From Thermodesulfovibrio yellowstonii DSM 11347 (GTDB taxonomy: Bacteria > Nitrospirota > Thermodesulfovibrionia > Thermodesulfovibrionales > Thermodesulfovibrionaceae): a DNA stretch of 64,000 bases. The stretch is from the NCBI RefSeq assembly GCF_000020985.1, contig NC_011296.1, positions 372,001 to 436,000 on the forward strand. Direction: 5' to 3'. The position numbers were made by a program, and so were the translations under genes. Shown piece by piece: positions 22,718-56,303 of the stretch. Under the pieces are notes generated by a model that ran no database searches, was not told where the DNA came from, and saw only the letters and a list, made by a program, of their open reading frames with translations. Numbering within the stretch: position 1 is the stretch's first letter; the number at the start of each line of letters is the position of its first letter.

Positions 22718-23141
22718 GAAGCTGTTTAATTATCAACTGACATTCTAAGGAGTCTCAATGACCCCGAAGAATCTCTGCCCGAGGGCTCTCCTCTTTCTTT
22801 ATCATTCCGAACACCCTCAATGGGTGTGAGGAACCTCTGCCCTGTTTACCCTTGTAGGAAAAAGTGGAGGAGATTTCTTACAGACCTATCACTTTGTTCG
22901 GAACTACGCTTCTTTTCGGCGAGGCATGACACTCTTTTTCTGTCACCCCGAGCGAAAGCGAGGGGTCTACTCTTTTAGACGGAGATTCCTCGCTTCGCTC
23001 GAAATGACAAAAGAGGAACGTTCCTTGGAATGACAAGAAAAAGGCGGAATGACAGATAGAATGAGCGAAATGGCAGATAGAAGACTTAGGATGACAGTTA
23101 GAGGTGCGGAATGCAAAGTGAGCAGGCTTTTGAACAGGCTC
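22718..23141. repeat. Dispersed repeat element A filling the gap upstream of the NYN gene
   Basis: This gap holds no supportable gene. It contains several arms of the window-wide repeat family: GGAGTCTCAATGACCCCGAA, a CACCCTCAATGGGTGTGAGG hairpin, and CGAGCGAAAGCGAGGGG and CTCGCTTCGCTCG variants. The left edge GAAGCTGTTTAAT and the reverse-complemented right edge GAGCCTGTTCAAAAG look like imperfect terminal inverted repeats. The right edge abuts the stop codon of the FkbM gene. Confidence 0.7.
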
Positions 23142-28715: not shown

Positions 28716-29107
28716 TTTTACATCCTCCTTCTTGTGAACTTCTGGCTTCCGAAGGAAGCTTTTTAAGATTTATTTATTTCTCACCTCCTTTGCTCTTTCT
28801 CCCTGTCATTCCGAGGAACACCTCTTTCTGTCATTCTGAGCAGCACCTCTTTCTGTCATTCCGAACGGAGCGAAGCGGAGTGAGGAATCTCCTCCTTTTT
28901 CTATAACAGAAAAGGTCAGAGATTCCTCGCACCCATTGAGGGTGCTCGGAATGACAGAAAAACACAGCCCTCGGCTTGACTCTTTTGAGTCAGAGATTCT
29001 GAGAGGTCATTGAAACCCCTCAGAATGACATTTTAAATAGATAATCTCATAAAAATATAAATAATTTACTAAAATATAAATAAAAATCCAATTAAATGTT
29101 GTGAAAA
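28716..29107. repeat. Pilin upstream region with repeat element B and a leader hairpin
   Basis: About 390 bases without a gene. Next to pilA lies the perfect 6-bp hairpin GCTTCC / GGAAGC (28745-28759), which would be in the pilin mRNA leader. From about 28798 to 29030 the DNA is repeat-family sequence: three TCATTCCGA/TCATTCTGA arms, a GCACCCATTGAGGGTGC dyad, and GAGTCA/TGACTC arms. I could not identify a convincing pilin promoter. Confidence 0.65.
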
Positions 29108-36039: not shown

Positions 36040-36384
36040 GAAGCTGTTTAATAATAAAGAGAGTTTAAACTGTTGTTCTGAGAGACGAGACTCTGAGGAA
36101 CTTGGACTTAAAGAGTTATCCTGAGGGATTATCTCCTTAAAAAAGTGGAGGAGATTCTTCGTCGCTTACGCTCCTCAGAATGACAGAAAGCATCAGATGG
36201 CAGAAAAAGATTTAGAAGGGCAAAAATATAATTGGAGGACCAACAAAGCCTTAGCATGATAGAAAGGAAAGAGGAATGATATTTTTATGCTGTCACCCTG
36301 AGCGAAGCGAAGGGTCTCCTCTTTTGGATGCATAGGGGAAGTATAGGCAGACAGAAGAAAAGGGCTCAGAATGACAGATTGCGG
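36040..36384. repeat. Dispersed repeat element C between aroE and the sugar dehydrogenase gene
   Basis: The remainder of a roughly 480-base gap without genes. It begins GAAGCTGTTTAAT (as element A), carries GATTCTTCGTCGCTTACGCT with CCTCAGAATGACAG, and CACCCTGAGCGAAGCGAAGGG further on. An apparent ORF across it is composed of repeat arms and is not a gene. Confidence 0.7.
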
Positions 36385-38857: not shown

Positions 38858-39904
38858 TTACTGTGTTATCTCCTTAACGAATCTGACAATTGCCTCATAT
38901 ACTGGTTCAACATCTACATCATCTGCTTTTTTATTAATACCTTGAATAAGAACATTTTTTACTCCCCAAGGTCTCCACCTTTCAGGGTCTGTGGAACCCC
39001 ATATGGTAACAATAGGTTTACCAAGTGCTGCTGCTATATGCATAGCTCCTCCATCAAGACAGACAACAAGATCTGCGAAACTCAATGCAGCAATAAGCTC
39101 TCCAAGACGGACAGTCCTACAAGGAATAATCTCAGGAACTGCTTTTGATATAAGCTCAGCTTTCTCATCATCTCCTGGATGGTAGGGGTTGTTTTCTGAA
39201 CCTGGAGACCACAGTAGCATTATATTGGCATTATGATTTTTTAAAATAAGTCTTGCGAGGCTTATAAACTTCTCAGTAGTCCATCTGTTTTCAGGCTTTC
39301 TGCTGCTTATGTGGAAGGCTATTTTTCTGTCATTCTGAGGGGTCTCAATGACCCCGAAGAATCTCTCCTTTTTAAGCAATTCATTTACCCTTTCAATCTC
39401 GTATGATGATGGATATACCCTCATTTTGTCTGGTTTTTCATTTATTCCCAATGGTAAAAGCAAGGTAAAAACTCTTTCTACTTCATGCATAGGTTTTTGA
39501 GGCTCTTTGAGAGGCATATTATAAAAAAATGATTTTTCAACATTTTTTGGTAGATAACCAATTTTCAGCTTTGCTCCTGTTAAATATGTATATCTTGCAA
39601 GTCTTGGCGAATATGAGCCACAAGCAATTGCAACGTCATATTTTTCTTTTCTGATTTTCATGAGAATTTTGGTATTGTTGAACCAAACAGAAAACTTGTT
39701 TTTCTCAGGAACATGTTTAGCTTTTTCATAAATATATATCTCATCAATATCTGGATTGTTTCTAATCGCCTCTGCATTGTAAGAATTTACAAGGATTCCA
39801 ATTTTTGCCTGAGGATAAGCCTGCCTAACTGCATGTATTGCAGGAGTTGTGCATACGAGGTCACCAATATTGTCCCGACGGATGAAAAGGATTTTTGAGA
39901 TCAT
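38858..39904 (-). CDS. Glycosyltransferase family 9 with repeat-derived insertion
   Basis: A 348-aa heptosyltransferase-like protein: ILFIRRDNIGDLVCTTPAIH, VCLDGGAMHIAAALGKPIVT and WGSTDPERWRPWG. In the middle, just before the second Rossmann domain (KIAFHISSRKPENRW), lies an unusual stretch KKERFFGVIETPQNDR. It is translated from an arm of the dispersed repeat family found in nearly all long gaps. The frame is kept and the downstream donor-site motifs are intact, so the protein is probably functional. Start ATG overlaps the O-antigen ligase stop by 4 nt. Confidence 0.87.
   Translation of the reverse strand: MISKILFIRRDNIGDLVCTTPAIHAVRQAYPQAKIGILVNSYNAEAIRNNPDIDEIYIYEKAKHVPEKNKFSVWFNNTKILMKIRKEKYDVAIACGSYSPRLARYTYLTGAKLKIGYLPKNVEKSFFYNMPLKEPQKPMHEVERVFTLLLPLGINEKPDKMRVYPSSYEIERVNELLKKERFFGVIETPQNDRKIAFHISSRKPENRWTTEKFISLARLILKNHNANIMLLWSPGSENNPYHPGDDEKAELISKAVPEIIPCRTVRLGELIAALSFADLVVCLDGGAMHIAAALGKPIVTIWGSTDPERWRPWGVKNVLIQGINKKADDVDVEPVYEAIVRFVKEITQ
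39326..39375. repeat. Repeat arm D inside a coding region
   Basis: The stretch GTCATTCTGAGGGGTCTCAA followed by TGACCCCGAAGAATCTCT is nearly identical to arms in elements A (22.74 kb) and G (54.28 kb). Here it lies wholly inside the GT9 gene and is read in frame on the minus strand. Confidence 0.85.
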
Positions 39905-45230: not shown

Positions 45231-45500
45231 GAGGCTGTTCAATCACCAACGGTCATTCCGATGGGTCTTCTCCTTAAAAGAGAAAAGGAGATTCCTCACT
45301 TCGTTCGGAATGACATGGACGAACAGAGGAGATTCCTCGTCGCTAACGCTCCTCGGAGTAACAGAAGAGGAACGCTCATTGGAATGACAGGAAAAAGGTG
45401 CAATGACAGAAAGCGAATCCGAAGGATACATATATTCTCTTACCCTGAGCGAAGCGAAAGGTCTCATCTTTTAGAGCGGAGAAGATTCTTCTTCCGCATA
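45231..45500. repeat. Dispersed repeat element E between the MNT remnant and proB
   Basis: A gap of about 400 bases with no gene. It begins GAGGCTGTTCAAT, then has TCATTCCGATGGG, CTTCGTTCGGAATGACA, GATTCCTCGTCGCTAACGCT with CCTCGGAGTAACAG, and CCCTGAGCGAAGCGAAAGG arms. Frames read across it (SVSDEES and VIPNEVRNLL peptides) are repeat translation products, not genes. Confidence 0.72.
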
Positions 45501-45570
45501 CACGGCATTGGAATAGCAAACTTTTTGGGCAACTCATATTAGAAACCGAAGTAGACAAAAGAAATCAAAA

Positions 45571-49247: not shown

Positions 49248-49257
49248 CTTTTTTGCC

Positions 49258-49545
49258 ATTCAGGGGCTGCGTATGCGGAAGAAGAATCTTCTCCGCTCTA
49301 AAATATGAGACCATTTACTTCGCTCAGGGTGACAGAATATATGTGTCCTGCGGATTCGCTCTTTCTGTCATTCCACTTTTTCCCTATCATTTGAACTTTT
49401 CTTGTCATTCCAATGCACGTTCCTTTTCCGTCATTCCGAGGAGCGTTAGCGACGAGGAATCTACTTTTTTTTCCCGAGTATCAAAGACTCCTCGCACCCA
49501 TTGAGGAAGTTAGGAATGACAAAAAAGACTGCTCAATTATTAAGG
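49258..49545. repeat. Dispersed repeat element F between hisG and tRNA-Leu
   Basis: A gap of about 440 bases with no protein gene. It contains CTTCGCTCAGGGTGACAG, GTCATTCCGAGGAGCGTTAG with CGACGAGGAATCT, and CGCACCCATTGAGGAAGTTA with GGAATGACA. The right part reads GACTGCTCAATTATT, resembling the GCTGTTCAAT edge of other copies. Confidence 0.7.
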
Positions 49546-54253: not shown

Positions 54254-54486
54254 AGGGCTGGTCAATTTCTTTCTGTCATTCCGAAGGGTCTCAATGACCC
54301 TGAGGAATCTCTGATTTGTTCCATTTGAGAAAAAACAGAGGAGATTCCTCGTTGCTTATGTTCCTTGAATGACAGGTGGGGCGGAATGATAGAAAAATGA
54401 GAGATATGATAGATGGATGCAATTTAAAAATAACACAGCTTGTAGTTTATTGATTTTCAATAAATTGCAAGTTTTTGAACAATCTT
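54254..54486. repeat. Dispersed repeat element G upstream of the second chemoreceptor
   Basis: Begins GGGCTGGTCAATTTC, then GTCATTCCGAAGGGTCTCAA and TGACCCTGAGGAATCTCTG, then GATTCCTCGTTGCTTATG. It ends with a hairpin whose right flank reverse-complements to AGATTGTTCAAAAACTTG. The two outer edges are related in inverted orientation, consistent with a small mobile element. Confidence 0.65.
54439..54480 (+). promoter_or_regulatory. Hairpin leader upstream of the second chemoreceptor
   Basis: A 15-bp stem (CTTGTAGTTTATTGA / TCAATAAATTGCAAG, two G-T wobbles) with a 3-nt loop, followed by TTTTTGAACAATC. The copy at 465-504 has the same structure with base changes that keep pairing. In both, a start codon with a strong Shine-Dalgarno lies about 35 nt after the T-tract. 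It could be a terminator, an attenuator, or an element end. Confidence 0.55.
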
Positions 54487-56188: not shown

Positions 56189-56195
56189 TAACTAA

Positions 56196-56278
56196 TCCCT
56201 GGGGGAGGTCAAAAGACCTGAGAGTTCCCGATAAGGGAAGACCCCTTGAACCTGATCCGGATAATACCGGCGGAGGGA
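56196..56278 (+). ncRNA. TPP riboswitch (THI element)
   Basis: Conserved core present: GGGGGAGGTC, GACCTGAGAG (the CTGAGA of the THI box), then CCCTTGAACCTGATCCGG and ATAATACCGGCGGAGGGA. P1 is formed by TCCCT and AGGGA. It binds thiamine pyrophosphate and switches off the downstream thiS-thiG-thiE/tenI-thiC genes. The separate thiE at 13.7 kb has no such element. Confidence 0.95.
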
Positions 56279-56303
56279 AAGGGAGAGACTGAGTAAAAAA
56301 CAG

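Follow-up and report, generated by a model that had tools for sequence, protein, structure and literature searches.

Can a dispersed palindromic repeat enter a protein-coding gene, leave the reading frame open and be translated as part of the protein? This question is raised by a GT9 glycosyltransferase gene of Thermodesulfovibrio yellowstonii DSM 11347, located in the 64,000-nucleotide stretch analyzed here (NC_011296.1, positions 372,001 to 436,000; hereafter the window). A first-pass annotation of this DNA had placed the arm of an intergenic repeat within the gene and likened it to the palindromic elements of Rickettsia. It also suggested aligning orthologues, modelling the fold, surveying related strains and looking for the same peptide in repeat-free genomes.

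A hairpin repeat within the GT9 reading frame

Our analysis confirmed that a dispersed hairpin repeat lies within the GT9 gene and encodes an in-frame insert:

38858..39904, minus strand: GT9 glycosyltransferase gene with the in-frame element at residues 180-192, ERFFGVIETPQND
39328..39365, plus strand: REP-like hairpin element in the GT9 gene (hairpin z about -2.7; covariation)

The element, with the sequence TGTCATTCTGAGGGGTCTCAATGACCCCGAAGAATCTC on the plus strand, forms a complete two-armed hairpin of 38 nt, comprising a 5-bp outer stem, a GA/GA internal mismatch, a 6-bp inner stem and a TCAAT loop. It falls within the interval first assigned to it (39326-39375), the right end of which had been set about 10 nt too far. 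The GT9 ORF is uninterrupted (348 aa; Pfam Glyco_transf_9 match, E 4.5e-31), in agreement with the earlier description of an open gene with intact motifs, and residues conserved among GT9 orthologues, such as DGGAMHIAAALGKPIVTIWGST, are retained. Read on the gene strand, the element gives E180-RFFGVIETPQND-192, followed by R193, and the peptide sits between the two Rossmann domains as originally proposed.

Copies and counts of the repeat family

Copies of the repeat follow the layout TGTCATTCY-GA-core-RGAATCTC: they are alike at their ends (TGTC on one side, GAATCTC on the other), and the core between them varies in sequence and length. Copies were counted with a strict arm pattern (GTCATTCYGA-N5..30-GAATCTC), using the backward sequence as a control. 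This pattern gave 63 matches of 27-37 nt in the single-contig T. yellowstonii genome (2,003,803 bp), and the control gave none. A T preceded GTC in 60 of the 63 copies, and the base after CTC was C in 35 and T in 20; the CTC after GAAT is demanded by the pattern itself, and other tails lie outside these counts. Most strict copies overlap no ORF of at least 120 aa, with roughly ten lying inside longer ORFs. Across the genus, the strict pattern occurred in 12 of 16 genomes, at 0 to 119 copies each (119 in G012 and 9 in G003), and 80 of 296 genomes of the phylum contained matches (control, 2 matches). T. yellowstonii (G000), G007 and G012 are rich in the repeat, whereas G008 and G013 are poor in it.

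Within the window, the arm in the GT9 gene recurs at several other positions, including the first two below, which carry the same arm:

22739..22775, plus strand: related copy with a GGAGTC..GACCCC core, outside the GT9 gene
54275..54311, plus strand: related copy with an AGGGTC..GACCCT core, outside the GT9 gene
28855..28891, plus strand: left half of a head-to-head pair
28919..28955, minus strand: right half of that pair
28993..29029, minus strand: third copy of the 28855-29029 cluster, with a core resembling that of the GT9 copy
36151..36184, minus strand: copy with a AGCGTAAGCGAC core

In T. yellowstonii, two of three close pairs are in +/- orientation, and the G012 listing, taken without a count, also contains many +/- pairs separated by 20-30 bp (315399/315464 is one). 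An Rfam scan of the window returned only a TPP riboswitch (56191-56296) and tRNA, and nothing matching the repeat.

The window also contains mixed-orientation repeat clusters at 28804-29048, 22732-23041, 45251-45520 and 49252-49526, and long inverted blocks at 45322-45520 and 49252-49470 that are 86% complementary. At 36286-36328 and 45403-45475, the TGTCATTC type is accompanied by a second type of arm, GTCACCCTGAGCGAAGCGAAGGGTCTC, that may represent a sister subfamily.

Covariation of the hairpin and predicted fold of the protein

DNA folding of the GT9-gene copy returned the hairpin described above on both strands. For the GGAGCGTTAGCGAC class, the expected hairpin was absent on DNA folding with standard parameters, perhaps because tandem GA mismatches are penalized, and the covariation test was therefore confined to 37-nt copies with the long inner stem. 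Fifteen distinct copies (11 from T. yellowstonii and 4 from G012) were tested against a hairpin with a 5-bp stem, a GA/GA mismatch, a 6-bp inner stem and a 5-nt loop. Paired cells amounted to 98.2% versus 77.0% in shuffled data, a percentage inflated because these copies were selected as matching the long-inner-stem class and also served to define the structure. Two-sided changes still give an informative contrast despite this selection: the covariation score was 0.618 compared to 0.193 when shuffled (0 of 500 shuffles) and at most 0.19 with the partner slid. Across all 63 T. yellowstonii copies, the arm letter pair was C/G in 47, T/A in 10 and T/G in 6. The hairpin is strongly backed by covariation.

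An AlphaFold model of the GT9 protein showed a confident GT-B fold (mean pLDDT 91.3), with the GT9 enzyme 3tov as the best structural match, followed by WaaC and WaaF. The sole segment with pLDDT below 50 (residues 182-190) lies within the insert, which in the model forms the linker between helix 167-182, the last of the N-terminal domain, and strand 193-198, the first of the C-terminal domain. Fold modelling therefore bears out the suspected surface loop as a low-confidence linker in a predicted structure, and the hairpin DNA is predicted to be translated as a disordered surface loop.

In-frame copies in other genes

Strict copies in T. yellowstonii are also found in frame in HypF (two copies, the first adjoined by an additional relaxed copy), a CobN-like protein and NuoC. 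For each of these genes, orthologues within the genus lack the elements or carry different or decayed ones, and related species can be paired by presence and absence at several genes. Neither G003 nor G004, both 94% identical to T. yellowstonii over the matched part of this protein, has the CobN-like insert; since the protein spans only 2-771 of a 1277-position family profile, other causes may have split or shortened the gene. In HypF (L171 2124-4613), one linker is occupied by differing repeat elements in several Thermodesulfovibrio species and is free of them in others.

Further strict copies lie in AcsB, an HsdS-like gene and the N-terminal region of FlgI. These are probable in-frame insertions and were left out of the firm presence/absence cases: AcsB because the length of the region varies among orthologues, HsdS because it was examined in T. 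yellowstonii alone, and FlgI because its start codon is uncertain and the copy falls near the N-terminus. The FlgI copy (L173 2723-3940; genome 1959719-1960942) is read as VILSVAKNL directly before a likely signal peptide and is preceded by near-repeats, NYKVILS.

Probable gain of the insert among GT9 orthologues

Orthologue alignment showed that insert presence varies between related species, as the survey proposed in the first-pass annotation was meant to reveal. The insert is absent from GT9 of G009 and G008, both of the same genus, and of several other families of the order; orthologues with 61-71% identity are without it. In G003, the GT9 core is the same but bears substitutions and is somewhat decayed; in G012, the arms enclose a different core. 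Codon, orientation and frame match those of the T. yellowstonii copy in both cases. Lengths are 348 aa in T. yellowstonii, 358 aa in G003, 359 aa in G012 and 337 aa in G009, and the ancestral linker seems to have had about four of its codons removed or rewritten. As to whether a repeat-free genome shares the peptide, the one in which we found it, G003, has strict copies of its own, and its GT9 DNA at the shared peptide is still recognizable as the element. Target-site duplications were sought at the GT9, CobN-like and HypF empty sites, all of which have diverged, and none were seen; for GT9, the divergence of the flanks also leaves the empty site without base-exact limits. These observations count against an insertion account, as do the reach of the strict pattern, which covers only part of the genus, and the failure to find a Y1 transposase in T. 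yellowstonii.

A marker tree (AcsB, NuoC and HypF) groups T. yellowstonii (G000) with G004 and G003, and G012 with G009; the G000/G003 and G012 copies are therefore most simply explained by two landings. Alternatively, they could stem from one insertion that subsequently swapped cores with a different REP copy and was lost in G009. The differing cores at an identical codon, orientation and frame at both element ends are consistent with such an exchange, as is HypF, where a conserved site likewise holds differing elements. We nevertheless consider this history rather unlikely, given that G009, the sister of G012, is without the element: gain, exchange and loss would all be needed, while two insertions take fewer steps. 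Independent landings do occur, as unrelated repeats in the same linker demonstrate. GT9 orthologues from the deltaproteobacterial L083 and L080 have extra residues there, encoded by CCCCCGATACAAGCATTCGGGGG palindromes:

L083, 3531-3644: unrelated palindromic repeat in the GT9 linker, three palindromes in tandem and in frame
L080, 3528-3580: unrelated palindromic repeat in the GT9 linker, in frame

A strict 30-mer search had indicated that the L083 repeat was confined to few places, a view overturned by a shorter pattern showing dispersal (20 bases, up to 2 mismatches; 19 copies in the L083 genome, control 0). Since this repeat and the TGTC family have no sequence relationship, tolerance of the linker is the simplest shared cause.

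The GT9 linker has been filled by repeats more than once. A bolder proposal, to which we give low odds, is that the GT9 and HypF linkers are recurrent landing sites, with repeated hairpin insertion or in-place core exchange driven by a non-RAYT mobilizing activity; if true, a fixed gene position would cycle through different translated palindromes. The repeated occupation of both linkers makes chance tolerance versus targeted insertion testable.

The intragenic hairpin might also be kept for a role in mRNA or DNA (pausing, decay or topology) instead of as a tolerated loop. The hairpin is intact in the T. yellowstonii GT9 copy and REPs elsewhere have been proposed as RNA elements (PMC3733652), yet in G003 it has decayed with the frame kept; this points to the frame as the relevant feature and makes such a role improbable. 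Co-option of the peptide to improve or alter the enzyme is less probable still: the frame has been kept since the G000/G003 ancestor, but the peptide is predicted to be disordered, and cores and lengths differ freely between species. Finally, although G003 has much of the same peptide, a native GT9 loop that resembles the repeat by chance or gave birth to the family is almost certainly wrong, given the orthologues without the peptide, the complete two-armed hairpin with no chance matches in the control, and the same family at many other loci.

Mobility and proposed origin

The reading we favor, with a probability of about 0.92, is that a non-autonomous hairpin element inserted in the GT9 linker, the gene was kept open, and the element is now translated as a disordered loop. 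A TGTC-tagged, REP-like hairpin would have entered the gene in a Thermodesulfovibrio ancestor, landing in the flexible linker that joins the two Rossmann domains; the gene would have stayed open because the element's frames are free of stops and the overall change in length is divisible by three. Most insertions into genes were probably lost, with in-frame ones in flexible linkers persisting as near-neutral loops, and the GT9 enzyme may well still be active with its tolerated loop.

The hairpin unit may have been moved by a trans-acting enzyme or one since lost. RAYT-driven mobility in T. yellowstonii was ruled out of this account, as the genome has no match to PF01797 (Y1_Tnp); matches in the genus were confined to G001 and G011, and element abundance is unrelated to the presence of a Y1 transposase. 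Strict copies are most numerous in G012, where no Y1 transposase was found either, making this genome a good place to study transposase-less REP mobility.

Comparison with known systems

REPs are defined as palindromic sequences of about 14-40 nt with a shared motif and many copies that seldom overlap coding regions, and RepRanger lists T. yellowstonii with many predicted REPs (PMC12306157). The T. yellowstonii elements agree with this definition in size, palindromic structure, copy number and rarity in coding regions. Judged by sequence features, they represent a known phenomenon, being REP-like and resembling the CGTC REP superfamily. Members of that superfamily, which includes Neisseria dRS3 (CGTC-1), are hairpins with CGTC or TGTC at one end; no dedicated transposase is known for them, and some lie in frame within genes (PMC3733652). 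The terminal CGTC is often TGTC or CCTC, the stem is 8-9 bp starting with AT, the loop is 4-5 nt, the short unpaired tail is mostly CCA, and head-to-head dimers predominate (PMC3733652).

Shared features are the (C/T)GTC end, a stem starting with AT, dispersal, the occurrence of some head-to-head pairs, some intragenic copies and the lack of a dedicated transposase (here, no PF01797 match). In contrast, the T. yellowstonii stem is usually 5 bp, short of 8-9 bp, with a GA/GA mismatch and variable inner stem; the 5-nt loop occurs in the TCAAT class only; and the tail is CTC instead of CCA, the CTC being imposed by the search pattern. Given the interrupted stem and non-CCA tail, we call the elements CGTC-like and assign them to no named family. 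CGTC repeats have been listed for five phyla, Nitrospirota not among them (Di Nocera et al. 2013, PMC3733652), and no report of intragenic copies in Thermodesulfovibrio was found in the literature searched.

The comparison with Rickettsia made at the outset is apt as to kind: R. conorii RPE-4 and RPE-6 have been placed in the CGTC superfamily (PMC3733652), which the TGTC-tagged hairpins resemble. Like these elements and the longer RPE-1, the repeats are palindromes in frame within protein genes and add peptides, here to GT9, HypF, the CobN-like protein and NuoC, all likely to be functional proteins. Compared by their described features, they differ in lineage and in that most T. yellowstonii strict copies lie outside long ORFs. 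Our data add a free-living hot-spring thermophile of the Nitrospirota to the hosts of translated palindromic repeats, for which Rickettsia is the best-known example.

GTAG REPs with RAYT (Y1) are likewise dispersed small hairpins that form pairs and have an extragenic bias, but the terminus here is TGTC, not GTAG, and no Y1_Tnp gene was found in T. yellowstonii. A close parallel to the GT9 linker is Xanthomonas recB, in which related species carry different REPs at nearly the same position of the orthologous gene (PMC3733652); unlike recB, the GT9 linker is common to unrelated repeat families in different phyla.
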